From assembly GCF_947486615.1 (NCBI RefSeq), contig NZ_CANKUD010000004.1, positions 1 through 64,000 on the forward strand: a stretch of 64,000 nt of DNA, in the 5' to 3' direction. A program made the position numbers and the translations under genes. The stretch comes from an uncultured Modestobacter sp. GTDB lineage: Bacteria; Actinomycetota; Actinomycetes; Mycobacteriales; Geodermatophilaceae. Under the pieces are notes generated by a model, which saw nothing but the letters and a program-made list of their open reading frames with translations, did not search any database and was not told the DNA's origin. Shown in pieces: positions 1,219-62,845 of this stretch. Positions within the stretch are counted from its first letter, which is position 1; each line of letters opens with the position of its first letter.

Positions 1219-3306
1219 GTGTCGGCCGCTGACCCGGCCAGCCCGGGCGGACTGCTCGGGGTGGTCGTCGTCAACTACGGGTCCTCCCGGCTGCTCGCCG
1301 CCAACCTGCTGGCGGCCGCCGACCTGGGACCCGACGTGCGGGTCGTGGTGGTGGACAACCTGAGCACCGCCGCGGAGCGCGCCGCGGTGGGCGTCCTGGC
1401 CGCCGAGCGCGGCTGGGAGCTCGTCGGGCTCCCGGACAACCGCGGGTTCGGTGCGGCCAGCAACGAGGGCGTGCGGCAGGCCCGGGCACTGGGCTGTGTC
1501 ACGTTCCTCCTGCTCAACCCGGATGCCGTGATCACCCCGGACGTCCTCGCGGAGCTCCGGGACCACAGCCTCCGCGCCCCGCAGGAGCTGATCAGCCCGC
1601 TGATCACCGACTCCACCGGGGCGGCGGTGTTCCGTGGCTCGCGACTGTCGCTGCGAGACGGCCGGATCCGCGGCGACCGGCCCGGCCGGCCGGCGCTGCC
1701 GGACAGCGAGGAGTGGCTGACCGGCGCCTGCTTGGTCGTGCACGCCGAGGTCTGGGACCGGATCGGCGGCTTCACCGAGGGCTACTTCCTCTACTGGGAG
1801 GACGTCGACCTCAGCCACCGCGCCCTGGCCGCCGGCGCCCGGCTGACCGTGCGCCGTGACCTCCGCGTCGTCCACGACGAGGGCGGCACCCAGGGCACCC
1901 GGCGAGGCCGCGGTCACTCGCCGTTGTACTACCGCTGGAACTGCCGCAACCGGCTGGTGTTCGCTGCCCGCAACCTGCCACGCCGGTCGGTCCTGCGCTG
2001 GCTGGTCAGCACCCCTGCGGTCAGCCGGGAGATCCTGCTGCGCGGCGGCCGGCGGCAGCTGCTGCAGTCGCCCCGCCCGCTGTGGTCCGCGGTGCGCGGC
2101 ACGGTCGAGGGCGTGGGCGCGGCGCTGGCCGCGCTGGTGTCGCCGGCCCGACCCAGGCCGGCCGGGAGGCAGAGGCGGGTGCTGCTCGCCCATCCGGGGG
2201 CGGAGCTCTACGGCTCCGACCGGGTCTTCCTGGAGACGGTCGCGGCCCTCGTGGGCGAGGACCGGGTGACCGTCGCCCTCCCCGCGCCGGGGCCGCTGGC
2301 CGACGCCGTGCAGGAGCTGGGCGCCGAGGTCGTGCACTGCCCGATGCCGGTGATCCGCAAGAGCGCCCTGCGCCCGGCGGGGGCCCTGCGCCTGCTCGGC
2401 GACGCGGCGCGCGGCCTGGCACCGGCGGCGCGGCTGCTGTGCACCGCGGGCCGGGACGGCGTCTACGTCAGCACCCTCACCATCCCGATGTGGATCGCGC
2501 TGGGCCGGCTGCTGGGACGGCGGGTGGTCTGCCACGTGCACGAGGCCGAGCGCGGCGCGCCCGCACCGGTCCGCCGGCTGCTGGCGCTGCCCGTCTCCTG
2601 GGCCACCGCGGTGGTGGTCAACAGCCGGTTCAGCCTCGGGGTGCTGGCCGGGTCGGCGCCGGGCGTCGAGCGCCGCGCCACCGTCGTCCACAACGGCATC
2701 CCCTCGCCGGCGAGCGTGCCGCCGCCCCGGGAGAGGCTGGACGGCGGCGTCCGGCTGCTCTTCCTCGGCAGGCTGTCGGCCCGCAAGGGCCCACAGGTCG
2801 CCGTGGCCGCGCTGGCCGAGCTCCGCGACCGGGGCGTGCCGGCCTGCCTCGACCTGCTGGGCGGGGTGTTCCCCGGCTACGAGTGGTTCGAGGCCGAGCT
2901 GCGGTCGGCGGTCTCCACCGCTGGGCTGGACGGGCAGGTCACCTTCCGCGGTTTCGCGACCGACGTCTGGCCGGTGCTCGCGCAGGCCGACGTCGTGCTG
3001 GTCCCGTCCGTGGTCGACGAGCCGTTCGGCAACACCGCGGTCGAGGCGGTCCTGGCCGCCCGCCCGCTGGTGGTCAGTGACAGCAGCGGCCTCCGGGAGG
3101 CCGCGGAGGGCTATGCCTCGGCCCGGTCGGTGACCCCGGACCGGCCGGGGGCCTGGGCGGACGCCGTCGTGCAGCTCGTCGAGCAGTGGCCGGCCATCCG
3201 TCGGCAGGCCGTCGACGACGCGGCACTGGCCCGCCGGCGGCACGACCCGCTGACCTACCGCGCCGAGGTGGCGGGTCTGCTGCGGCGCAGCTGGGCCCCC
3301 CGGTGA
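1219..3306 (+). CDS. bifunctional GT2-GT4 fusion glycosyltransferase
   Basis: A 695-residue protein made of two glycosyltransferases. Residues about 12-290 are a GT2 (GT-A fold, rhamnosyltransferase-like) domain, with VVVDN (43-47), LLLNPDA (97-103, the acidic nucleotide-sugar site) and WEDVDLSHR (193-201, catalytic-base region). Residues about 320-690 are a GT4 (GT-B fold) domain, with HVHEAE (439-444), FLGRLSARKG (515-524) and the EX7E-type segment DEPFGNTAVEA (600-610). No membrane span is evident, so it is probably cytoplasmic. GTG 1219 starts the GT2 domain. The next gene overlaps it by 4 bp (GTGA), indicating translational coupling. It may add two successive sugars to one acceptor; the linkages are unknown. 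Confidence 0.8.
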   Translation: MSAADPASPGGLLGVVVVNYGSSRLLAANLLAAADLGPDVRVVVVDNLSTAAERAAVGVLAAERGWELVGLPDNRGFGAASNEGVRQARALGCVTFLLLNPDAVITPDVLAELRDHSLRAPQELISPLITDSTGAAVFRGSRLSLRDGRIRGDRPGRPALPDSEEWLTGACLVVHAEVWDRIGGFTEGYFLYWEDVDLSHRALAAGARLTVRRDLRVVHDEGGTQGTRRGRGHSPLYYRWNCRNRLVFAARNLPRRSVLRWLVSTPAVSREILLRGGRRQLLQSPRPLWSAVRGTVEGVGAALAALVSPARPRPAGRQRRVLLAHPGAELYGSDRVFLETVAALVGEDRVTVALPAPGPLADAVQELGAEVVHCPMPVIRKSALRPAGALRLLGDAARGLAPAARLLCTAGRDGVYVSTLTIPMWIALGRLLGRRVVCHVHEAERGAPAPVRRLLALPVSWATAVVVNSRFSLGVLAGSAPGVERRATVVHNGIPSPASVPPPRERLDGGVRLLFLGRLSARKGPQVAVAALAELRDRGVPACLDLLGGVFPGYEWFEAELRSAVSTAGLDGQVTFRGFATDVWPVLAQADVVLVPSVVDEPFGNTAVEAVLAARPLVVSDSSGLREAAEGYASARSVTPDRPGAWADAVVQLVEQWPAIRRQAVDDAALARRRHDPLTYRAEVAGLLRRSWAPR

Positions 3307-4244
3307 CCGGGCAGCCGCCCGTCACCGTCGCCGTCCTGACGTTCCGGCGCCCGGAGACCCTCGCCGCCCTCCTCCCGGAGCTGGTCGCGCAGGCCGCCGA
3401 CGTCTCCTGCGGCGCGCGCGTGCTGGTCGTGGACAACGACCCCGCGGGCAGCGGCCGCCGCACGGTGGCGGACGCCCGGCCGTCGTCCGAGGTGCGGGTC
3501 GACTACGTGCACGAGCCGACGCCGGGGATCGCCGCTGGCCGCAACCGCGCGCTCGCGGAGTCCGCGGACGGCGACCTCCTGGTCTTCATCGACGACGACG
3601 AGCTGCCGCACCCTGGCTGGCTGGCGCACCTGCTGGCCACCCAGGCCGCCACCGGGGCAGCAGCGGTGGCCGGCACGGTCACCTCCCGCTTCCCGGCACC
3701 ATTGCCGCCCTGGATCGAGGCGGGCGGCTTCTTCGACCGCCGGCGGCTGCCGACCGGCACCCCGATCGAGGTGGCGGCGACGAACAACCTGCTGCTGCAC
3801 CTGCCTCAGGTGCAGGCGGCCGGTGTGCGCTTCGACCCGGCCTTCGGGCTGAGCGGGGGAGAGGACACCCTGTTCACCCGGCAGCTCGTCGCTGCGGGCG
3901 GCCGGATGGTCTGGTGCGCGGAAGCCGTCGTCACTGACGTCGTGCCGCCCGAGCGGGCCACCCGGGCGTGGGTCCTCCGACGCGCCTTCAGCTCCGGCAA
4001 CTCGGTCAGCCGGGTGGCGCTGGCGCTCGCCGGCTCCCCGTTGCGCCGGGTGGTGGCCCGGGCCGAGGGATGGAGCCGGGGCGTCGGCCGGGTGCTCGCC
4101 GGTGCCGCCCGCTGGCTGCTCGGGGTGCTGACCGGCGACGTCCGGCACCGGGCTCGCGGTGCCCGCAGCGCCGCCCGCGGTGCCGGCATGCTGGCCGGCA
4201 CGGCCGGCCACGTCTACCAGGAGTACGGGACCGCCCATGGCTGA
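3303..4244 (+). CDS. GT2 family glycosyltransferase
   Basis: A 313-residue GT-A fold glycosyltransferase. The N-terminus VTVAVLTFRRP is the usual first strand, LVVDND (41-46) binds the nucleotide, and IDDDE (96-100) is the DXD-type metal site. SGGEDTLFTRQL is the catalytic-base region. The C-terminal 70 residues are basic and hydrophobic and may sit on the membrane. The start is GTG 3303, which overlaps the previous stop in a GTGA arrangement, so it is co-translated with the GT2-GT4 fusion. It presumably extends the same lipid-linked oligosaccharide; sugar specificity cannot be inferred. Confidence 0.82.
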   Translation: MTGQPPVTVAVLTFRRPETLAALLPELVAQAADVSCGARVLVVDNDPAGSGRRTVADARPSSEVRVDYVHEPTPGIAAGRNRALAESADGDLLVFIDDDELPHPGWLAHLLATQAATGAAAVAGTVTSRFPAPLPPWIEAGGFFDRRRLPTGTPIEVAATNNLLLHLPQVQAAGVRFDPAFGLSGGEDTLFTRQLVAAGGRMVWCAEAVVTDVVPPERATRAWVLRRAFSSGNSVSRVALALAGSPLRRVVARAEGWSRGVGRVLAGAARWLLGVLTGDVRHRARGARSAARGAGMLAGTAGHVYQEYGTAHG

Positions 4245-48636: not shown

Positions 48637-48735
48637 GAACGGCGGCCATGTTGGCGAACATGGCCGCTGAGGGACGGTGGAACGGCGGCCATGTTGGCGA
48701 ACATGGCCGCTGGGGGACGGCGGAACGGCGGCTGG
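48637..48735 (+). repeat. 43-bp tandem repeat containing a perfect hairpin
   Basis: Units begin with GAACGGCGG at 48637, 48680 and 48723 (period 43). The first two are complete and each contains 11-bp arms GCGGCCATGTT and AACATGGCCGC around a GGCG loop (48642-48667 and 48685-48710). The third is cut after GAACGGCGGC and runs into the ribosome site of the DUF885 gene. It occupies most of the 132-bp gap and may act as tandem terminators for the upstream gene. Confidence 0.88.
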
Positions 48736-48747
48736 GAGACTGCGGGC

Positions 48748-51893: not shown

Positions 51894-52131
51894 TCGGCTG
51901 GCCGGCGGGTTCCGTCGGGTCCGTCGCCGCCGGGGTGGCGGTCGGCTGCGGCTTCGGGGGCGTGCTGGCCCAGCGGATCAGCGCGACCGCCGCCCAGCCG
52001 GCGGCCAGACACCACGGCAGCCGGGTGATCACCTCGTCCGCGGTGAGGTCACCGCGCAGCGCCAGCAGGAACAGCGGCACCGCCAGCACGAAGGCGGTCA
52101 GCACGACGTCCCGGCGGAACGGGCTGGTCAC
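51883..52131 (-). CDS. small membrane protein at the end of the flagellar operon
   Basis: An 82-residue protein with two hydrophobic helices (about 8-26, [17 protein letters not shown], and 38-54, [17 protein letters not shown]) and a Pro/Thr/Ala-rich C-terminal tail. GTG 52131 overlaps the stop of the FlhF-like gene (GTGA), so it is translationally coupled to the flagellar genes. It matches no named flagellar protein. A role with the FlhF-like protein is possible by position only. Confidence 0.65.
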
Positions 52132-55100
52132 GCGTCCATCTCCTCCAGGCGCTCACAGAGCAGCGACGCCCAGCGGTGGGCGGTGGCCCGGGCGCCGTCG
52201 ACGAGGGCGACCGGCACCGACACGTGTCCGAGCACGGCGGCGGGGTCGGCGGTGGAGTCGGTGTCCTGGACGACGACCGCGTCCAGCCGGGGCAGCGCGT
52301 CCAGCCACGGGACGAGGTCCTCGGGCTTGCGGGTGGAGTCCATGACCGCCCACACGGCCGCCGGGGTCCAGACCGAGAGCATGTGCTCCAGCCACGGCCC
52401 ACCGGCGGTGCGCAGCGGCGCGTCGACGGCGACGATGGTGATCGTGCCGCGGGAGCCGCTGGTGCGGCGTCGCTCGGCGGCGGTCTCCAGCGAGGTGATC
52501 CGGCTGCTCTCCGGAGCCAGCCCGGCCAGTGCACCGGAGGCGGCCCACTGGACGTCCTCGGGCTCCAGCCGGAGCGAGAAGGCCAGCGACCGGGCGGCGG
52601 CCAGGGTCTCGGCGCCGGGGCCGACGACCATGAGCACCTCGCCGGCCTCGGCGGGCACCTCCGGCGCCGCCGGCAGACGCTCGGCCAGCGTCCGGGTCAG
52701 GGCCGCGTAGACCCCCCGGCCGGCGGCGTCCATGGCGAAGTCGGCGTCCAGCAGCGAGTGGGGGAGGCCCAGGGTGAGCAGCTGACCGACGAGCTCCTCG
52801 GGACCGGTCACCGGGTAGGGCGCCAGCTCCTTGGACGGTGCCGGGACCAGCCGGGTGACCGTGGCCAGCCGGGTGCCGGTCTCGGCGGCGGCCGGCAGCG
52901 CGCTGGGCGCCGGCGCGGCGGCCACCGGCAGCGGGGCGACCCGCGGGCGGCCGGTCAGCGGGGGACGGCTGGCCGGCACCGGCGGCCGCGACCGGCGGAC
53001 CGGCGGGACACCCGGGCGCGTGGCGAGCAGCGGGGGCAGGCCGTTCGCCGTGCCGAACCGCGACGGCGGCATCAGCGACAGCGGCGGCAGGACGGTCGTG
53101 GCGTCCATCGGCAGGGGGGCGGGGTCGCTGGCGGTGCGGGCCAGGGCGGGCGCGACCGACCTGGGCAGCACGAAGCGCTCGGCCGGTGCCTCGACCGGGC
53201 GCGGGGCCACGCGCCGGAGGTCCTCGGCCGGGGCGTCGTCCACGAGGACGGCGTCCACCACGAGGTCCTGCGCGGCAGCCACCTGCGCCGCGCGCTGGGC
53301 GACCCGCGCGTCGGCGCCGAGGACGTCGATGCGGTGGGCGCCGGTGTCGTAGGCACTGGGCTGCGACCCGGTGGCCGCGTAGGCCCAGGGGCGCGGCACG
53401 TCGCGGACCTGGTTCACGACCGAGGGGATGGCGGGGGCCGCGGGCCCGGCGGCAGCGGCGCCGACGACCGCACCGGCGGTCACGCCGGCGACGGTGTCCT
53501 GGTCGTCCTGCGCGCCGGCCTCGGGGAAGCGGTGCCGGCCACGACCGGTCCCGTTGGCTGCCAGCACCTCCTCGAGCAGGTCGGCGAGCTCCTCGTCGGC
53601 GGAACGGACCGACTCGACCATGGACAGCGCCGGCACGTCGTCGACCGGCTCGGCGGCGGCGGCCGGCTCGGTCTCGGCGGCAGCGGCCTCAGCGGTGATC
53701 CGCTCGGCCTCAGCGGTGATCCGCTCGGCCTCGGCGGTGATCCGCCGGGCCTCCCGGCGCTCTGCCTCGGCCTGGGCAGCCTTGACCCGCTCTGCCTCGA
53801 CCCGCTCTGCCTCGACCCGGGCGGCAGCGGCCTCGGCGGCGATCCGCTCGGCTGCCGCGGCGATGCGCTCGGCCTCCAGACGCTCGGCCTCCAGGCGCTC
53901 GGCCTCGATCCGGGCCGCCTCGACCCGGGCGGCCTCGGCAGCAGCGGCGGCGGCCTCGACGGCGACGCGTTCGGCTTCGAGGCGGGCGGCCTCGACCCGG
54001 GCGGCCTCGACCCGGGCGGCCTCAGCGGCGACTCGCGCAGCCTCGGCAGCCGCGGCCTCAGCCGCGACGCGGGCGGCCTCGGCGCGGGCGGCCTCAGCGG
54101 CGACTCGCGCAGCCTCGGTAGCCGCGGCCTCAGCCGCGATGCGCTCGGCTTCGATGCGCTCGGCTTCGATGCGCTCGGCTTCGATGCGGGCGGCCTCGGC
54201 GGCGATTCGCGCAGCCTCGGTAGCCGCGGCCTCGGCGGCGATGCGCTCGGCTTCGATGCGCTCGGCTTCGATGCGCTCGGCCTCGATGCGCTCTGCCTCG
54301 AGCCGCGCAGCCTCCTGACGCGCGGCCTCGACCTGCTCGGCCTCGATGCGGGCAGCCTCGGCGGCGGCCGCGGCCTCGGCTGCGGCCTGGATCCGGGCGG
54401 CCTGGGTGCGGGCGGCCTGGGCCCGGGCGGCCTCGGCGGCGGCCGCGTCGATCCGCGCTGCGGCGAGCCGGGCGGCGTCGGCGGCAGCAGCCTCGACCGC
54501 CGCGGCCTGGTCGGCGGCAGCGTCCGCGGCGGCCGCGTCGGCAGCGGCCGCCTCGGCGGCCGCGTCCTCGGCCGCGGCGTCGGCGGCGGCCTGGACCGGG
54601 CTGGAGCTCACCATGCGGGTGAGTGCAGCGGCGAACGGGGACGGGGAGGCCGGCTCGTCCGCGGCCGGCTCGTCGGCGGTGGTGCGGGGGGCGTGCAGCT
54701 CGTCCGCCGACAGCATCAGCGTGTGCCGGGCCGGGGTGAACGGCTTCGCCGCGGTGCCCCGCGGTCCGGCCGGGGCGGCCGCCGGGCGTGCGGTCCGGGG
54801 GGCGGCGGCGATCCGGGCGGCCGCGGCGGCGGCGGAGTGCGTGGGGACCGACTCGCGGGGCGATGCGGCGGACCGCGCCGGGGCAGCGGCCGCGCGGGCG
54901 GTGGCCCTGCGGACGGGGGCTGCGCTGCGCACGGGCGCCTCGTCGTCGGCGAGGAGGGACCGCGCGGGCGTGGCCCGGCCGTACATCTCCACGTCCGGCG
55001 TCGGCTGGCCGGCGGCGCCGAGCAGGTCGGCGAGCTCCTGCATGCGGTCGTCGAGCGACGGGGCGGCGGGCGCGGCGGCTCCGGCGGCCTTCAGCACACC

Positions 55101-55325
55101 GGCTCCGGCGTCCTTCAGCCCGGCACCGCCGGTGCTGCCGGTCGGTGCCGCGGTGCCGGCCGGCACCTCGACCTCGGCGATGAACCGCTCGTTGGTGAAG
55201 AAGCCGAACATGCCGCCGGAGCGGATGCGGCGGACCCCGACGACCCGGGCGGTGGGACCGAACTGCTCGCGTGCGGCGGCGATCGCCTCGTCACGCGTGG
55301 CGGCCTCAACGGATTGCGACGGCAC
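52128..55325 (-). CDS. FlhF-like protein with degenerate GTPase domain and long Ala-rich helical repeat
   Basis: A 1065-residue protein in the flhF position after flhA, overlapping it by 20 bp. Residues 1-55 match the FlhF N-terminus ([22 protein letters not shown], then GGMFGFF). Residues about 242-562 are Ala/Glu/Arg/Ile repeats including ERIEA pentads. The last 220 residues follow the SRP-GTPase/FlhF NG layout, but the P-loop reads [15 protein letters not shown] (near 897) instead of the usual GxxGxGKT. The DTAGR box reads VDAPLR and the TKxD box reads VQDTDS. GTP binding is therefore unlikely. It is far larger than usual FlhF (about 400 residues). It may be a pseudo-GTPase scaffold for flagellar placement. 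Confidence 0.75.
53680..54595 (-). repeat. internal coding repeats of the FlhF-like gene
   Basis: The DNA is built from 15-bp units such as GCGCTCGGCTTCGAT (encoding ERIEA on the minus strand) and larger blocks. The string CGACTCGCGCAGCCTCGG recurs at 54029, 54101 and, with one change, 54203 (spacings 72 and 102 bp, both multiples of three). The repeats keep the reading frame throughout, which implies selection for a helical protein product and makes the gene prone to length variation. Confidence 0.85.
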
Positions 55326-57351
55326 CGCTCACCACTCCCAGGGACTCGATCTGTGCCGTGCGGGACACCTCGTTGTAGGAGATGACCGGCAGGCGGGGCA
55401 GGACCTGGCGGACCAGGCGGGACAGGGCGGCTCGCACCTGCGGCGAGCAGACGAGCACGGGGGAGAGGTTCAGCCGTTCGGCGTCCTCGAGGATGTCGGT
55501 GCAGCCGCGGACCAGCAGGTCGACGGTGTGCCCGTCGAGGGCCAGCACCTGGCCCCCCTCGGTCTGCCGGACGGACTCCAGCAGCCGCTGCTCGAACGAG
55601 GGCTCGAGGGTGATGACGTGCAGCCGCTCGTCGTCGGTGACGTGCGGGTGGCTGATCGCGGCACCGAGGGCGGCGCGGGCCGCCTCCACCAGGCCGTCGA
55701 GGTCGGTGGAGACCTTGGCGCGCAGCGACAGGGCCTCGAAGATGCGCACCAGGTCGCGGATGGAGACGCCCTCGTCGAGCAGCGCCTGCAGCACCTGCTG
55801 CACCTGGCCCAGGCTGAGCAGCGTCGGGGTCAGCTCCTCGACCACCGCCGGGTGCGAGCGCCGGACCATCTCGACCAGCACCTTGACGTCCTCGCGGCCC
55901 AGCAGCGCGGAGGCGTTCTGCCGGACGACCTCGGCCAGGTGCGTGGTGATCACCGAGGAACGGTCGACCACGGTCGCGCCGGCCATCTCGGCCTGCCGCT
56001 GCAGCTCGGCGGGCACCCACTTGGCGGCCAGGCCGAAGACCGGCTCGCGGGTGGCCTTGCCGGGCAGCCCGTCGAGGTGGTCACCGATCGCCAGCACCGT
56101 CCCGGCCGGGGAGGTGCCCTTGGCGGCGGGGACGCCGTTGAGCCAGATGACGTACTGCGAAGCGGGCAGGTCGAGGTTGTCGCGGGTGCGCACCAGCGGG
56201 ATGACCAGACCGGTCTCCATGGCGACCTTGCGGCGCAGGGCCTTCACCCGGTCCAGCAGGTCGCCGCCGCGGGCGGTGTCGACCAGCTCGACGAGGTCGA
56301 AGGCGACCTCCAGCTCCAGCGGGTCCACCCGCATCCGGTCGGCGATCGCCTCCGGGGAGTCCGGCTGCGGTTCGGCGGCGGTCAGCTGGGCGGCGGGGCT
56401 GTCGTCGTCGTCCTCCTCGACCCGGTCGGTGAGCCGGGTGGAGATGAACAGGGTCAGACCACCGATGAGCAGGAACGGCAGCTTGGGCAGGCCGGGGATC
56501 AGGCACAGCGCGAGCGCGGCGATGCCGGCGATCCGCACCGGCTGCTTGTTCCGGGACAGCTGGCTGATCAGGTCCGAGCCCATGTCGCCCTGGGAGGCGG
56601 AGCGGGTGACGATCAGGCCGGTCGCGGTGGAGATCAGCAGGGCCGGGATCTGCGAGACCAGGCCATCGCCGACCGACAGCAGCGAGTAGGTGGAGATCGC
56701 CTCGGCCGGGGCCATGCCCTTCTGCATCATGCCGATCGCGAAGCCACCGATCAGGTTGATCAGCGTCACGATGATCGCGGCGATGGCGTCGCCCTTGACG
56801 AACTTGCTGGCGCCGTCCATCGAGCCGTAGAAGTCGGCCTCGGAGGTGACCTCCTGGCGCCGCTTGCGGGCCTGCTTCTCGTTGATCAGACCGGCGTTCA
56901 GGTCGGCGTCGATGGCCATCTGCTTGCCGGGCATCGCGTCGAGGGTGAAGCGGGCGCCGACCTCGGCGACGCGGCCGGCACCGTTGGTGATGACGACGAA
57001 CTGGATGATCGTGAGGATCACGAAGATCACCAGGCCGACGATCAGCGAGCCGCCGATGACGAAGTGGCCGAACGCCTCGATGACCTTGCCGGCGTATCCG
57101 TCGGTGAGCACCAGCCGGGTCGAGGAGACGTTCAGCGCCAGCCGCATCAGCGTCGCGATCAGCACCAGGGACGGGAAGATCGCGAAGTCCAGCGGTCGCT
57201 TGATGTTCATCGAGACCAGCAGGATCAGCAGCGACCCGACGATGTTCAGGGCGAGCAGCACGTCCAGCACGGGCGCCGGCAGCGGCACGACGAGCATCAG
57301 GACGATGGACACGACCCCGATGGGGACGGCGGCCTTCGTCAGCTTTCCCAC
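55306..57351 (-). CDS. flhA: flagellar export apparatus protein FlhA
   Basis: A 681-residue FlhA. The N-terminal half has about eight membrane helices with the signatures [31 protein letters not shown] and [21 protein letters not shown]. The acidic linker ([12 protein letters not shown]) and the cytoplasmic docking domain (about 350-681) follow. It is the export-gate component that binds chaperone-substrate complexes and uses proton motive force. ATG 57351 is the conserved [14 protein letters not shown] start. The gene order flhB-flhA-flhF is the usual one. Confidence 0.97.
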
Positions 57352-57546
57352 GGGCCCTCGTTCCTGTGCGGTCGTCCTCCGGCGGTGCGCCGGGGCGCTC
57401 CCTCAGGGACCTTCTCGGCAGCCCGGGGAACGGTCCGTACCGCGGCGGGGACGACGGCAGCCCGCCAGCCCCGTCCGTCACAACAGCTCCGGCCGCCCCG
57501 TCAGCGGGGGGTCGGAGTGGACGGCGGGGTCGGTGGGGAGCAGGGA
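57352..57546 (-). other. flhB-flhA spacer
   Basis: A 195-bp non-coding gap inside an otherwise compact operon. It has a small stem-loop, CCCCG/CGGGG around TCAG (57496-57509), extended by imperfect pairing to about 57487-57519. No gene or clear promoter was seen; an internal promoter for flhA cannot be excluded. Confidence 0.4.
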
Positions 57547-58680
57547 TCAGCGGCGCCGACCCGCCTTGGGGAGCCCGTCGAGGGCGGGCGCCTCGAAGCC
57601 CGGCCGGTGCATGCCGCCGCGGACGCCGCGGGCGGACAGGTGCATGACGAAGGCCAGCACCCGGGCGACGGCGGTGAACAGCTGGGCGGGCACCTCCTGG
57701 CCGATCTCGCAGGAGCCGTGCAGCGCACGGGCCAGCGGGATGTCCTGGACCATCGGGACCCGGCACTCCTCGGCCCGGGAGCGCAGCTTCGCCGCCACCT
57801 CGCCGGCGCCCTTGGCGACCACCCGGGGGGCGCCCTTCATCGGGTCGTACTTCAGCGCGACGGCGACGTGGGTGGGGTTGACCAGCAGGACGTCGGCGTC
57901 GGCGATCTCGGACATCATCCGGTTGCGCGACATCGCCATCTGGGTGGCCCGGCGCTGGGCCTTCATGTGCGGGTCGCCCTCGGACTGCTTGTGCTCCTGC
58001 TTGATCTCGTACTGGCTCATCTTGAGCTGCTTCATCATCTTGTGCCGGACCACCAGGTAGTCGGCGATGGCGATGACCAGTCCGGTGATGCCGACGACCC
58101 GGAACATCAGCACCGCGGAGTCGGTGAAGGCGCGGGTCACCTCGCCCAGGGGCATGGCGCCGGAGGCGGCGACCAGTTCCTGGGCCTTGCCGGAGGTGAC
58201 GATGATGACCGCGGCGAGCGCGACGGTCTTGATGATCGCCTTGGTCGCCTCCCAGAGGCCCTGGGTGCCGAACATCCGCTTGATGCCGGGGAAGGGGTTG
58301 AGCTTCTTCAGCGTCGGCTTCATCGCCTTCGTGGCGAGGGTGACCCCGCCCTGACCGGCCGAGGCCAGGGTGCCGATCAGCATCATGGCCAGCGCCATCG
58401 GCAGCAGGACCGTCATGAAGGCCATCAACGCCTGGCCCAGCAGCGCGGACAGGATCGCCGGCTCCGGGTTGTCGGCGACGCTCCCGATCTGGATGAACAG
58501 CTGCTGGATCTCCTCGAACGCGTTGCCGACCAGCATCGGCAGCAGCACGCTCGCGGCAGCCGCGCCCAGCCAGGTGCCCAGCTCCTGGGTCCGCGGGATC
58601 TGGCCTTCCTTGCGGGCCTTCTTGAGCTTCTGCGGTGTCGGCTTCTCGGTCTTCTCCCCGCCGGGACCGTCCTTCGCCAT
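57547..58680 (-). CDS. flhB: flagellar export apparatus protein FlhB
   Basis: A 377-residue FlhB with four membrane helices in residues 30-210 and a C-terminal cytoplasmic domain. The autocleavage motif NPTH is present near residues 267-270 (LLVNPTHVAVALKYDP), so substrate-specificity switching should work as in other species. The N-terminus GEKTEKPTPQKLKKARKEGQIP is diagnostic. The tail is longer than typical by about 25 residues (MHRPGFEAPALDGLPK). ATG 58680 begins 24 bp after the fliR stop. Confidence 0.96.
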   Translation of the reverse strand: MAKDGPGGEKTEKPTPQKLKKARKEGQIPRTQELGTWLGAAAASVLLPMLVGNAFEEIQQLFIQIGSVADNPEPAILSALLGQALMAFMTVLLPMALAMMLIGTLASAGQGGVTLATKAMKPTLKKLNPFPGIKRMFGTQGLWEATKAIIKTVALAAVIIVTSGKAQELVAASGAMPLGEVTRAFTDSAVLMFRVVGITGLVIAIADYLVVRHKMMKQLKMSQYEIKQEHKQSEGDPHMKAQRRATQMAMSRNRMMSEIADADVLLVNPTHVAVALKYDPMKGAPRVVAKGAGEVAAKLRSRAEECRVPMVQDIPLARALHGSCEIGQEVPAQLFTAVARVLAFVMHLSARGVRGGMHRPGFEAPALDGLPKAGRRR

Positions 58681-58704
58681 CAGTCACCTCCTCCCGTGGG
58701 CACG

Positions 58705-59469
58705 TCAGCCGCTCCGCAACGAGGTGATCGCGTCCAGCGCGGTGTCCATCAGCGAGTCCACCGCCGCCGGCAGCAGCGGGAACGTCAGGCCCAGCAGGGT
58801 CAGGGTGATCATGATCTTGACCGGGAAGCCGATCGCGAAGATGTTCAGCGCGGGCGCGGCCTTCGACAGCAGGGCCAGGGCCACGTCGGCCAGGAGCAGC
58901 ACGGCCACCATCGGCCCGGCGATCTGGATCGCGGCCAGGAACATCATCGAGAAGGCCGTCATGAGGGTGGAGGCCACCTGGTCGGTCGGCAGCGCGCCGC
59001 CCACCGGCAGCCCCTCGTAGGAGGTCACGAAACCCCGCACCAGCAGCAGGTGGCCGCCGCTGGTGAACAGCAGCGTGGTGGCGAGCAGGTAGTGCAGCCT
59101 GCCGATCACGCCGCTGGTGGTCAGCGACATCGGGTCGTAGGCCGGCTGCAGCGAGAAGCCGCCGGCGAGGTCGATGACGTCACCGGCCAGCTGGACGGCG
59201 GCGAACAGCACCTGGACGATGAAGCCCAGCGCCGCGCCGATGATCGCCTCGGTGACCGCCCCGACGATCAGGAACCCCGCGGTGATCTCCGGCATCAGCC
59301 CGGTGATGTGCGGGAACGCGACCAGCGCGAGGGCCAGCGCCAGCGCGCCCTTGACCGCCCGGGGAATGCCGTTGGAGTTGAACGGCGGCGCCAGGACGAT
59401 GAACCCGGTGGCCCGCGTGCTGGCCAGCAGCAGCGCCGCCAGCGTCGCCGAGGGGACATCGAGGTCCAT
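58705..59469 (-). CDS. fliR: flagellar export apparatus protein FliR
   Basis: A 254-residue protein with about six membrane helices. FIVLAPPFNSNGIPRAVKGALALALAL and GAALGFIVQVLFAAVQLAGDVIDLAGGFS are conserved FliR regions. FliR forms the core export channel with FliP and FliQ. ATG 59469 lies 6 bp after the fliQ stop. Confidence 0.95.
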   Translation of the reverse strand: MDLDVPSATLAALLLASTRATGFIVLAPPFNSNGIPRAVKGALALALALVAFPHITGLMPEITAGFLIVGAVTEAIIGAALGFIVQVLFAAVQLAGDVIDLAGGFSLQPAYDPMSLTTSGVIGRLHYLLATTLLFTSGGHLLLVRGFVTSYEGLPVGGALPTDQVASTLMTAFSMMFLAAIQIAGPMVAVLLLADVALALLSKAAPALNIFAIGFPVKIMITLTLLGLTFPLLPAAVDSLMDTALDAITSLRSG

Positions 59470-59475
59470 GCCGGC

Positions 59476-59751
59476 TCAGGCCTTGCCGAGCAATCGCGGC
59501 AGCGACGCGAACAGCTGGTCGGTGAAGGAGACGAGCTCCGAGAGCACCCAGTTGCCGGTCACCAGCAGCGCGATCGCCACCGCGATCATCTTCGGCACGA
59601 AGGAGAGCGTGGGCTCCTGGATCTGGGTCGCCGCCTGGAACAGCGAGATCATGAAGCCGACCAGCAGGGCGGTCAGCAGGATCGGGGCGGCCACCTTGGC
59701 CCCCACGATCATCGTCTGCGTCGCGATGTCCGTGACGTCTGCGTCGCTCAT
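59476..59751 (-). CDS. fliQ: flagellar export apparatus protein FliQ
   Basis: A 91-residue protein, the standard FliQ length, with two helices (about 15-35 and 50-72). The core AAPILLTALLVGFMISLFQAATQIQEPTLSFVPKM is unmistakable. ATG 59751 overlaps the fliP stop (ATGA), so the two are coupled. Four copies are expected to join the FliP5-FliR1 gate. Confidence 0.95.
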   Translation of the reverse strand: MSDADVTDIATQTMIVGAKVAAPILLTALLVGFMISLFQAATQIQEPTLSFVPKMIAVAIALLVTGNWVLSELVSFTDQLFASLPRLLGKA

Positions 59752-60581
59752 CCGTACGACCCCACCAGCGCGGTCGTGATGAGTGCCCAACCGTCGACGA
59801 CCACGAAGAGCAGCAGCTTGAAGGGCAGCGACACGACGGTCGGCGGCACCATCATCATGCCCATCGCCATCAGCGCGGCGCTGACCAGCATGTCCAGCAC
59901 CAGGAACGGGATGAACACGACCAGGCCGATGATGAAGGCGCTCTTGAGCTCGGAGAGCACGAACGCCGGCACCAGGGTCAGCATGCTCACCGACTGGGCG
60001 TCCGCCGGCGCTTCCTCCCCGGACAGCCCGATCATCAGCTTCAGCTCGTCGTCCCGGGTGTTGTCCAGCAGGAACGTCTTGAGCGGCTCGACGCCGGAGT
60101 CGTAGGCCGCCGAGGCGGTGATCGCGCCGTCCAGGTAGGGCTGGACGGCGACCTCGTTGATGTCACCGAACACCGGGCCCATCACGAAGATGGTCAGGAA
60201 CAGCGCGATGCCGGTGAGCACCTGGTTGGGCGGTGAGGTGGGCAGGCCCAGCGCGTTCCGGGTCAGCGCCAGCACGATGAGGATCTTGGTGAACGAGGTC
60301 ACCAGCAGCAGTGCCGACGGCGCAATCGACAGCACGGTGATCGCCAGGATCAGCGTGACCGCGGTGCTCGGGCTGTCCCCACCGATGGAGATGTCCAGTC
60401 CGCCGTCGTCCACCACGGGCGCGGTGGGGTCGGTCGGTGCGATGGGGGCGGTCGGCGCGGCCGAGGCGGGGCCGGCCAGCAGCACCATCGCGACGACGGC
60501 ACCGAGCAGCACGAGCAGCAGCAGGGCCGACCGCTGCGCGGTCGACCGGCCGCGGGTGGCCGGCGCAGGCAGGGTGGTCAC
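59748..60581 (-). CDS. fliP: flagellar export apparatus protein FliP
   Basis: A 277-residue FliP. An N-terminal cleavable signal (SALLLLVLLGAVVAMVLLAGPASA) is followed by a Pro/Thr/Asp spacer and four helices. Diagnostic segments are SFTKILIVLALTRNALGLPTSPPNQVL and LVVFIPFLVLDMLVSAALMAMGMMMVPP. GTG 60581 overlaps the fliO stop (GTGA), and the fliP stop overlaps fliQ. It builds the pentameric channel ring. Confidence 0.96.
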   Translation of the reverse strand: MTTLPAPATRGRSTAQRSALLLLVLLGAVVAMVLLAGPASAAPTAPIAPTDPTAPVVDDGGLDISIGGDSPSTAVTLILAITVLSIAPSALLLVTSFTKILIVLALTRNALGLPTSPPNQVLTGIALFLTIFVMGPVFGDINEVAVQPYLDGAITASAAYDSGVEPLKTFLLDNTRDDELKLMIGLSGEEAPADAQSVSMLTLVPAFVLSELKSAFIIGLVVFIPFLVLDMLVSAALMAMGMMMVPPTVVSLPFKLLLFVVVDGWALITTALVGSYG

Positions 60582-61012
60582 GACCGTCGCACCGTCCGCT
60601 CGCGCAGCTCCTGCACGACCGTCGTCCAGGTGCCGCGGTCGAGCACGGACCCGGCCAGGGCGGGGGAGCCGACGCGGGCCGGAGGGCGCGGGGCGGGTAC
60701 GCCGTCCAGGTCGCCGGCGGTGCCGGTGACGGCCGGGCGCACCTGGGCCGTGGCCAGCGCGGTCCGCAGTTCCTCGTCCTCCACCTCGGCGAGCAGGGTG
60801 ACGTGCTCCTCGGTGGAGCCGACCACGAGCACCCGGCCGGCGACCCGCAGCACCGAGACGCTGCTCGCCCGGCCCATGCGCTGGCGGGCGACGACCTCGA
60901 TCACGCCGGTGGTGCCACCGAGCCCGCGCTTGGCGGCCAGCCGGCTGGCGAACAGCAGCACCGCCGCGATGAAGCCCAGGCACAGCACCAGGCGGATGAT
61001 CATCCACGTCAT
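60578..61012 (-). CDS. fliO: flagellar biosynthesis protein FliO
   Basis: A 144-residue protein with one N-terminal helix (IIRLVLCLGFIAAVLLFASRL) and a small cytoplasmic beta domain (IEVVARQRMGRASSVSVLRVAGRVLVVGSTEEHVTLL), the FliO pattern. It helps assemble the FliP ring. The C-terminal 60 residues are Pro/Arg-rich. ATG 61012 is chosen at the helix; the 21 in-frame residues upstream are read through the spacer and lack similarity. Confidence 0.85.
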   Translation of the reverse strand: MTWMIIRLVLCLGFIAAVLLFASRLAAKRGLGGTTGVIEVVARQRMGRASSVSVLRVAGRVLVVGSTEEHVTLLAEVEDEELRTALATAQVRPAVTGTAGDLDGVPAPRPPARVGSPALAGSVLDRGTWTTVVQELRERTVRRS

Positions 61013-61088
61013 CGCTCGACTCCGAACTCGTTCCGCTCCTCGGTCGCTGGCGCTCCCTGCGATGCTCGCTCGCACGTCGTCTTCGGGG
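61013..61088 (-). other. fliN-fliO spacer
   Basis: A 76-bp gap in a series of genes that otherwise overlap (fliM-fliN, fliO-fliP, fliP-fliQ). The sequence includes GGTCGCTGGCGCTCCCTGCG and CGATGCTCGCTCGCAC, which look like low-complexity intergenic filler. No hairpin stronger than a few base pairs was seen. Confidence 0.35.
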
Positions 61089-61826
61089 TCACGGGGCCGC
61101 CGTCCCCGGGTCGGCGTCGGTCACGATCTCGCTGATCCGCAGGCCGAAGTCCTCGTCGACGACGACGATCTCGCCGCGGGCGATCAGGGTGCCGTTGACC
61201 AGCAGGTCGGCCGGTGCGCCGGCGGCGCGGTCGAGCTCGACGACCTCACCGGGGTGCAGGGAGAGCAGCTCGGAGACCGTCATCCGGGTCCGGCCGATCT
61301 CGACGGTGACCTCCATGGCCACGTTGCGCAGCAGGTCCAGGCTGCCGCGCCGTTCACGCCGCTGCGGCAGGGTGACCTGCAGGGCCAGCGTCGCGGCGAT
61401 CTCGCTGCCGTTGACCAGGGGGACGGCGAGGAAGACGCCCTTGTCACGCAGGCCGTCCAGCGCGGGGACGACCTCCTCGACGCGCTCGGCGGCCACCCGG
61501 ACCCGGCCCAGGGCCGCGGCGGCGGCCTCCAGCGCGGGGCGCAGCGCAGTGGCGACGTCCATCGGGCCGACCGGGGAGTTGGTCAGCGCGCTGACGATCT
61601 CCTCGGAGAGCACCAGCACGATGTCGCCGCTGACCTCACCGCCGAGGGCTGCGGTGACGGCCGCCCCCGGGGTCGCCGGGAGGGGGACCGACTCGGGGTC
61701 GGCCACCGTCTCCCCGGCGCGCAGGTCCAGCTCGGCCGGCAGCGCGGCCGCGGCGGCCTGGGCGGCGGCCGCGACGGCGGTGGCGATGGTCTCGGAGTCC
61801 GAGGAGGTGCCGAAGGCGGTGGTCAT
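61089..61826 (-). CDS. fliN: flagellar motor switch protein FliN/FliY
   Basis: A 245-residue protein. The C-terminal 75 residues form the FliN/SpoA domain (DLLRNVAMEVTVEIGRTRMTVSELLSLHPGEVVELDR, LVNGTLIARGEIVVVDEDFGLRISEI). The N-terminal 150 residues carry a CheC-like segment (GEVSGDIVLVLSEEIVSAL), so it is closer to FliY than to the short FliN. An N-terminal FliM-like CheY-binding peptide is not visible. ATG 61826 overlaps the fliM stop. It forms the lower C-ring. Confidence 0.92.
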   Translation of the reverse strand: MTTAFGTSSDSETIATAVAAAAQAAAAALPAELDLRAGETVADPESVPLPATPGAAVTAALGGEVSGDIVLVLSEEIVSALTNSPVGPMDVATALRPALEAAAAALGRVRVAAERVEEVVPALDGLRDKGVFLAVPLVNGSEIAATLALQVTLPQRRERRGSLDLLRNVAMEVTVEIGRTRMTVSELLSLHPGEVVELDRAAGAPADLLVNGTLIARGEIVVVDEDFGLRISEIVTDADPGTAAP

Positions 61827-62800
61827 GGGTGGTCCTTTGCGACGGTCGCGACGATGTCGGGGACGATCTCGGCGGCCAGGCGGCGCCGGTGGTTGCTCGG
61901 CAGGGCGTGGGCGAAGGTCACGTCGTTGGTGGTGACCTCGAGCGGGCTGTCCTGGGTGTGCCGCAGCAGCAGCACGTCGCCGACGGCGAGGGACAGCAGG
62001 TCGCCGGAGGGGACCTCGATCGGGTTGAACCGGACGCTGACGTCGACCGGCACGTCGTTGAGCCGCTCGGTCAGCGCCTCGTGGGCCCGCTGCCGCTTGA
62101 CCCGCGCGGACTCCGACAGCTGCGGGGAGGCCGCGTTGTTCAGCGCCCCGACGAAGGCGGAGAACGGCAGCACCAGCGTGGCCTCGGGCTCCCGGGTGCC
62201 GATCCGCATGCTGTAGGTGGAGACCATCACGGTCTCCGAGCCCGACGCCGCCTGGGCCAGCTGCGGGTTGTACTCGACGCCGTCCAGGGCCGGCTGCAGC
62301 GCGGTGATGTGCGCGAAGGCCTCGGCGAACTGCTCGAGCAGCTGCTGCAGCAGGTGGCCGGTGATGCTGCTCTCCATGCCGGTCATCGGCCGGTTGGGCT
62401 GGTCGCCGGCGCCGGCGCCGCCCAGCATGTGGTCGACCATCGCCATCGCGGTGTCCAGCGGGTAGGCCAGCAGGCCCTTGCCGGGCAGCGGCTCCAGCGT
62501 GAAGACCGCCAGGAAGTACGACGGCGGCAGCGTGGCGACGTAGTCGTCGTAGGAGAACTGCTCGATGCCGACCAGTTCCATCCGCGCCCCGGTGCGCAGC
62601 GCCGAGGTCAGCGTCGTCGTCGCCTGGCGGGCGAAGTTCTCCTGGGCGATCTGCAGGATCCGGACGTGCTCGCGGGAGAGCTTCGTGGGGCGACGGAAGT
62701 CGTAGGTGCGCGGTTCCCGTCGCCGGGCACGCCCCTGCCCGTCGGGGTTCCGGGGGGCGGGGACGCTGGGCGCCTCGGCCACGGTGTCGGACAGGCTCAC
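61823..62800 (-). CDS. fliM: flagellar motor switch protein FliM
   Basis: A 325-residue FliM. YDFRRPTKLSREHVRILQIAQENFARQ, the GGAGAGDQPNRPMTGMESSI loop and the C-terminal SpoA domain (LNDVPVDVSVRFNPIEVPSGDLLSLAVGDVLLL) are clear. The first 30 residues (SLSDTVAEAPSVPAPRNPDG) lack the LSQxEIDALL-type motif to which CheY-P binds in other bacteria. GTG 62800 has GAGGA six bases upstream; ATG 62812 in frame is an alternative that does not restore the motif. It forms the middle of the C-ring. Confidence 0.93.
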   Translation of the reverse strand: MSLSDTVAEAPSVPAPRNPDGQGRARRREPRTYDFRRPTKLSREHVRILQIAQENFARQATTTLTSALRTGARMELVGIEQFSYDDYVATLPPSYFLAVFTLEPLPGKGLLAYPLDTAMAMVDHMLGGAGAGDQPNRPMTGMESSITGHLLQQLLEQFAEAFAHITALQPALDGVEYNPQLAQAASGSETVMVSTYSMRIGTREPEATLVLPFSAFVGALNNAASPQLSESARVKRQRAHEALTERLNDVPVDVSVRFNPIEVPSGDLLSLAVGDVLLLRHTQDSPLEVTTNDVTFAHALPSNHRRRLAAEIVPDIVATVAKDHP

Positions 62801-62845
62801 GCATGTCCTCATCGGCGGTGGGGTGGTCGACCCTGACCGCCGGGG

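Follow-up and report, generated by a model that had tools for sequence, protein, structure and literature searches.

The gene considered here lies in a window of 64,000 nucleotides of DNA from an uncultured Modestobacter sp., a soil actinobacterium of the family Geodermatophilaceae (contig NZ_CANKUD010000004.1 of assembly GCF_947486615.1, positions 1 to 64,000; contig C4 of genome G000, 4.70 Mb, in our numbering). It is carried on the minus strand, as are all the features of the protein given below, and runs from a GTG start codon at 55325 down to 52128, stop codon included. The reading frame is open throughout its 1065 codons and overlaps by 20 nucleotides the end of flhA (55306 to 57351, minus strand; FHIPEP, E = 1.7e-258), which is located immediately upstream, and the uninterrupted 1065-codon gene at the flhF position that had been described in the initial annotation of the window is therefore confirmed. 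FlhF is a GTPase of the signal recognition particle (SRP) type which sets where flagella form, and FlhG activates its GTPase. According to our analysis of the open reading frame and of its relatives, the gene encodes a protein derived from FlhF that is devoid of nucleotide-binding motifs. Residues 1 to 57 (55155 to 55325) resemble the core of the FlhF B-domain, also known as the FliG-interaction domain (FID), residues 58 to 850 (52776 to 55154) form a linker whose length varies among relatives, and residues 851 to 1065 (52131 to 52775) make up an NG domain with a predicted SRP-GTPase fold. The linker includes a run rich in Ala, Glu, and Arg and free of Pro and Gly, spanning residues 244 to 553 (53667 to 54596).

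In the NG domain, the segment that we take to be the P-loop, or G1 motif, reads GPGAETLA (52599 to 52622) in place of GxxGxGKT, while the presumed G3 site reads DAPLR (52410 to 52424) in place of DTAGR and the presumed G4 site reads QDTD (52257 to 52268), within VVQDTDS, in place of TKxD. The earlier readings of these three sites, i.e., a P-loop without GKT, DAPLR, and QDTDS, proved exact. When we extended the inspection to 97 sequences, consisting of the window protein together with 43 loci of its family, 30 of its order, and 23 of its class, some of them cut by contig ends and two interrupted, none contained [GA]xxxxGK[ST] at any position, and none contained GK[ST], TKxD, or DT[AP]G within the last 225 residues. 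Judged by its motifs, the protein is not a GTPase; since the G1, G3, and G4 motifs are missing in all 97 sequences, it fails one of the tests that define FlhF as a GTPase family while keeping the FlhF build. The alignment across relatives that the initial annotation had proposed thus reveals a P-loop loss common to many flagellated relatives, and this is the larger finding.

A joint alignment of 40 motif-less forms, 7 canonical FlhF proteins, and 2 bridge forms, in which the P-loop is retained, indicated that the G5 loop and the segment presumed to be the I-box are deleted in nearly all of the 40 motif-less forms, although both counts depend on gap placement. Other positions are strongly kept: 30 family sequences agree fully at 47 columns of the NG alignment, and the motif VDATRKxxD is prominent in the motif-less forms (D in 29, A in 35, T in 29, R in 32, K in 36, and the final D in 36 of 40). 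The predicted fold and this conserved motif could be taken as signs that nucleotides, or some other small ligand, are still bound by the NG domain through a noncanonical mode, but with G1, G3, and G4 missing in 97 of 97 sequences and the I-box and G5 deleted in nearly all of the 40 aligned, we deem such binding improbable.

Assignment of the C-terminal domain to the SRP-type NG fold is supported by the predicted model and by profile-profile comparisons. The AlphaFold2 (AF2) model, covering residues 816 to 1065, is of middling confidence (64 to 70 in four of five models and 41 in the fifth). When it was submitted to Foldseek, a solved FlhF (8r9r, from Shewanella putrefaciens) ranked first; in VIA-align, FlhF was not in the top row and tied with other SRP GTPases. 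Profile A3, compared with the PDB, reached SRP54 only at a nonsignificant E of 0.028. As for the N-terminal domain, residues 1 to 57 of the window protein alone matched NF009366 at E = 0.0079, among 16 relatives, 10 hit TIGR03499 at E ≤ 1, the lowest E being 2.9e-7, and comparison of the N-terminal profile with the N termini of canonical and bridge FlhF proteins gave a profile-profile P of 6.3e-15. AF2 predicts a strand-helix-strand-strand arrangement for this domain, and its likeness to the B-domain is therefore one of sequence and predicted fold, seen mainly through the profiles of the relatives; against the solved FlhF FID (9en1), the N-terminal profile gave only E = 0.19, ranking fifth after chance matches. 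A preserved FlhF N terminus and an SRP-type C-terminal fold, both of which had been proposed from the sequence of the window alone, are thus supported, and the outcome of a C-terminal fold unrelated to SRP GTPases did not appear.

The resemblance to FlhF (TIGR03499; structures 8r9r and 2px0) hence comprises a FID or B-domain, a linker, and an NG fold, encoded by a gene directly after flhA, the position that is also a mark of the FlhF family. In Shewanella FlhF, the N-terminal domain binds FliG, and it is this domain that the N terminus of the window protein resembles. Unlike FlhF, the motif-less form lacks G1, G3, and G4 and, in nearly all cases, the I-box and G5, no FlhG was found to accompany it, the linker of the window protein reaches about 790 residues, and the curated FlhF cut-offs (174.15 bits for TIGR03499 and 585 bits for NF009366, the latter reached in none of 14 control genomes either) are not attained. 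From Ffh and FtsY, the motif-less form differs both by the absence of nucleotide motifs and by the presence of the FlhF-like N-terminal domain. A second, canonical FlhF elsewhere in the host genome, which would have spoken against the initial annotation, was looked for and not found, as nothing in that genome reaches the cut-off of any FlhF model. PF00448 has three matches in this genome, two of which are strong and are taken to be Ffh and FtsY, whereas the weak third is a 661-amino-acid protein also matching AAA_31.

Of the 296 genomes in the phylum sample, 14 yielded FlhF proteins above the TIGR03499 cut-off, and none of these 14 belongs to the class of the window. Using as the query the FlhG encoded beside canonical flhF in G363, we found FlhG next to flhF in all four canonical-FlhF genomes searched, G363 included (E = 6.6e-95 or better), while in 45 other genomes, both bridge genomes included, nothing better than E = 1.2e-14 was retrieved, although a very divergent FlhG could escape this search; matches of the latter level are taken to be general ParA/MinD kin. 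The bridge forms L146 (G433) and L147 (G560) belong to two other families outside the class, have an intact P-loop (GQSGVGKT and GASGVGKT), and share with the motif-less forms an N-terminal GGxxGFF motif; they are likely intermediates. The gene that follows the bridge flhF in L146 (approximately 2747 to 3853) looks by eye like a PilZ-domain gene and not like FlhG. Because these two forms retain the P-loop in genomes without a recognizable FlhG, they suggest an order of events in which FlhG appears to have been lost before the P-loop. In a phylogenetic tree, the motif-less forms are separated from the others by a branch supported at 100/100, which is compatible with a single loss and a single origin, within the limits of a midpoint root, long end branches, and uneven letter make-up; with this root, the long-branched L168 is grouped with the canonical forms.

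When we searched the genomes of relatives, with E-values calculated per genome, the C-terminal 200 amino acids were recovered in 98 of the 112 family genomes, that of the window included, and in 90 of the 96 of good quality. The true relatives in named genomes number 11, namely, 10 from Modestobacter and 1 from a Geodermatophilaceae bacterium. Among the 14 family genomes with no match, the presence of flhA was checked in those belonging to the order sample; in one of them, G044, flhA is present and the N terminus is at a contig edge. The order sample (298 genomes) gave 81 matches, one of them spurious, and flhA in 88 genomes, with both flhA and the domain in 80. Of the 31 order matches outside the family, 30 were kept and L131 was dropped as unrelated, being an aldolase by eye. 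The eight order genomes with flhA only include, besides G044, G120 and G160, which carry N-terminus-like genes, and G294, a weak match (30.5 bits) taken to be spurious; the loci were read in those other than G215, G225, G266, and G268.

In the class sample (345 genomes), 43 genomes have flhA and 24 have flhA together with the domain, the host of the window among them. We inspected, by motif scan and by eye, 17 of the 19 that have flhA only (all except G799 and G937) and found two with the N-terminal domain alone (L191 and L204), two with a divergent gene resembling the N terminus (L195 and, at a contig end, L205), and 13 with no recognizable copy. The genes of L191 and L204 are short frames of 278 and 250 amino acids situated after flhA, in which the NG domain is absent. 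Eight class genomes gave a weak domain match only (E = 1.8e-5 or worse), six of which were examined (all except G695 and G928): four (L176 to L179) were read as Ffh, L180 was unrelated, and L181 yielded nothing. Altogether, 29 class loci were examined and 23 (L153 to L175) were kept. Outside the class, in a search that covered the matches other than G454, G462, and the second one of G396, a motif-less form with no P-loop was identified in G396 and G515, from one family of another class, again after flhA. A Desulfosporosinus match (L015) was dropped as a 964-amino-acid protein of another kind.

Excluding sequences cut by contigs or interrupted, the full protein measures 700 to 1,659 amino acids in the family (n = 40, median 989), 320 to 1,058 in the order (n = 24, median 511), and 339 to 621 in the class (n = 22, median 446.5), where the values outside the family are stop-to-stop frames and hence upper bounds. 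In pairwise alignments of family members (11 pairs), the linkers are separated by 11 to 194 gap columns while both ends align without gaps, except for two columns in one NG pair, a pattern consistent with a spacer that is flexible or extensible and not fixed in length. The run of Ala, Glu, and Arg, which had been estimated at about 320 residues and 48 nm, is real but somewhat shorter, amounting to 310 residues, or about 46.5 nm if it were one continuous helix. It is built of imperfect tandem repeats with periods of 15, 21, 30, 36, and more nucleotides. Single alpha-helix (SAH) domains are recognized by opposite charges at i+3/i+4 without heptads, and the window protein, in which alone this was scored, has a net i+3/i+4 opposite-charge score of 0.142 per residue, compared with at most 0.074 in 1,000 shuffles, and no heptad signal in its run.

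This apparent likeness to SAH domains, a long run bearing Glu and Arg with spaced opposite charges, is tempered by differences, since the run is very rich in Ala, restricted to certain lineages, and unstable in length, and its helicity is putative. In the genus of the window, it spans 179 to 424 residues in 12 other members and 50 in another (L054); two further genera of the family contribute six members with runs of 124 to 258, the other members of the family stay at 64 or below, and sequences from outside it, apart from L106 and L107, at 78 or below, and Pro or Gly breaks the linker every 64 residues or less in six of eight other genera sampled. Two loci from a distantly related family in the order, L106 and L107, have a run of 245 to 248 residues free of Pro and Gly and rich in Ala, Glu, and Arg, perhaps gained independently. 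The run is thus optional, and its standing as a defining part of the protein is not supported. That it acts as a ruler or spacer of set length, i.e., a rigid single helix some 46 nm long that measures a distance, as the absence of Pro and Gly, the charge score, and the lack of heptads might suggest, is very improbable, because a ruler should keep its length, whereas this run varies severalfold within the genus, is short in the majority of the other genera in the family, and lies in a linker that changes from pair to pair.

Both ends of the protein are under purifying selection. The ratio of nonsynonymous to synonymous substitutions (dN/dS), estimated by a simple counting method between the window gene and 11 relatives of its genus, is 0.04 to 0.23 in the N-terminal domain and 0.20 to 0.31 in the NG domain; in seven closer pairs, it is 0.10 to 0.27 in the NG domain and noisy in the N-terminal domain (0 to 0.52, one undefined). 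Together with the occurrence of the C-terminal part in 98 of 112 family genomes, this selection argues that the gene is more than chance. It also bears on the possibility that the protein is a decaying vestige, in which the GTPase was lost after FlhG and FlhF is on its way out, the gene persisting either because its N terminus retains a minor task or because it disappears slowly. Such decay would account for the graded series that leads from canonical FlhF with FlhG, via the bridge forms with no FlhG found and the motif-less full-length forms, to the N-terminal domain alone and finally to absence, as well as for the frame interruptions at two of the 43 family loci. However, a vestige would hardly be expected to retain selection at both ends, a C-terminal domain in most of the family, and 47 invariant NG columns, or to be longer in the family than in the wider class, and we therefore regard decay as unlikely, though the most serious of the alternatives. 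At both interrupted loci (L053 and L060), the break falls between the N- and C-terminal parts, with sequencing error and decay not distinguished.

Upstream of flhA, the cluster continues on the minus strand with flhB (57547 to 58680; PF01312, E = 6.7e-112), fliR (58705 to 59469; PF01311, E = 7.7e-61), fliP (59751 to 60626 for the part scanned, the listed frame of 59748 to 61007 being longer; PF00813, E = 6.7e-74), fliO (60578 to 61075; PF04347, E = 9.1e-11), and fliM (61823 to 62812; PF02154, E = 4.8e-39), and the flhF-like gene is the end of this unidirectional series, facing a plus-strand gene of the PhoH family. Genes for FliG, FliF, FliH, an export ATPase, a hook protein, flagellin, MotA, and MotB are found further along the same contig. 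Plus-strand open frames of 1,069 and 1,919 amino acids (the latter at 54346 to 60105) overlie the same bases and are probably shadows of GC-rich genes rather than genes. Elsewhere in the window, at 48648 to 48740, nearly identical gene starts (MLANMAA...) occur twice, 43 nucleotides apart, as a short direct repeat; the second opens a frame of 424 amino acids with no Pfam match.

The tight linkage and overlap with flhA might point to an export or regulatory protein having only the fold of FlhF and acting on FlhA or secretion instead of FliG. Nevertheless, the N-terminal domain resembles the FID of FlhF, and flhA is followed by flhF at canonical and bridge loci as well, so that the linkage needs no new role; this proposal too seems improbable, even slightly more so than noncanonical ligand binding. 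What sequence and prediction together provide is homology to FlhF at both ends, an NG fold, loss of G1, G3, and G4, a position after flhA, no recognizable FlhG in the genomes searched, and purifying selection. On this basis, we lean, by a modest degree, toward a descendant of FlhF that would have lost the nucleotide switch and kept both docking ends, and that would act constitutively in flagellar initiation as an adaptor or tether, so that tether or scaffold would be the best functional reading. The FID-like N-terminal domain would be expected to bind FliG in the newly forming basal body, and the long, length-variable linker would allow a wide separation of the two ends. Such a protein would then operate as a nucleotide-independent adaptor from the basal body, via FliG, to a site in the cell, with neither a GTP cycle nor an FlhG to reset it; as to its C-terminal partner, DivIVA, an actinobacterial pole protein, is only a guess. 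FliG binding, the existence of a C-terminal partner, nucleotide independence in the cell, and a role in the number or place of flagella are all inferred.

Several observations weigh against this adaptor. Only 24 of the 43 flhA genomes of the class sample carry the domain, and since 13 of the 17 inspected flhA-only genomes have no recognizable copy, the protein is dispensable; the reading frame is also interrupted at two of the 43 family loci. The N terminus of the window protein, taken alone, is a weak match to FlhF, and its NG domain, taken alone, returned no SRP-type match in searches of Pfam and PDB sequences. Profile searches of PDB sequences were not significant, nothing of SRP type being retrieved with the family profile and no SRP protein with profile A5, and Pfam searches of 30 family members gave weak unrelated families alone (best E = 0.0029). 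Profile A3 found the canonical FlhF of G363 and missed the canonical-FlhF genome G361. Finally, in Pseudomonas aeruginosa, assembly depends on the B-domain of FlhF and the pole on its G domain, while FliG is contacted by FlhF in the GTP-bound state and hydrolysis weakens this contact (PMC12713375); a form unable to bind GTP may therefore hold FliG differently.

A previous survey using BLASTP and PSI-BLAST with further checks listed the later actinobacterial classes, by class, as lacking FlhF (PMC10746217, in the text available), and neither Geodermatoph- nor Modestobacter occurs as a word in its main text; our guess is that these searches missed the divergent motif-less form. The term actino is absent from the available text of a review (PMC12826062) devoted to the FlhF-FlhG switch, and no report of a motif-less FlhF was among the matches listed from the open-access PMC literature, a search that most subscription journals fall outside. 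By the species order published in PMC10746217, the loss would be placed near the ancestor of the later actinobacterial classes. We propose, tentatively and with doubts outweighing confidence, that a common ancestor of several classes dismantled the FlhF-FlhG switch, FlhG first and then the GTPase, and that a tether without the switch still initiates flagella at a chosen site, its reach being set by an evolvable linker. If this is true, the published view of later classes devoid of FlhF would be incorrect, and FlhF would prove able to do its core job without the GTP cycle. The occurrence of FlhF descendants without nucleotide motifs beside flhA in 80 of 88 flhA genomes of the order sample, and in about half of the flhA genomes of the class sample, offers a large natural set in which it can now be tested which of the tasks of FlhF, i.e., recruiting FliG, choosing the site, and counting, need the GTP cycle.
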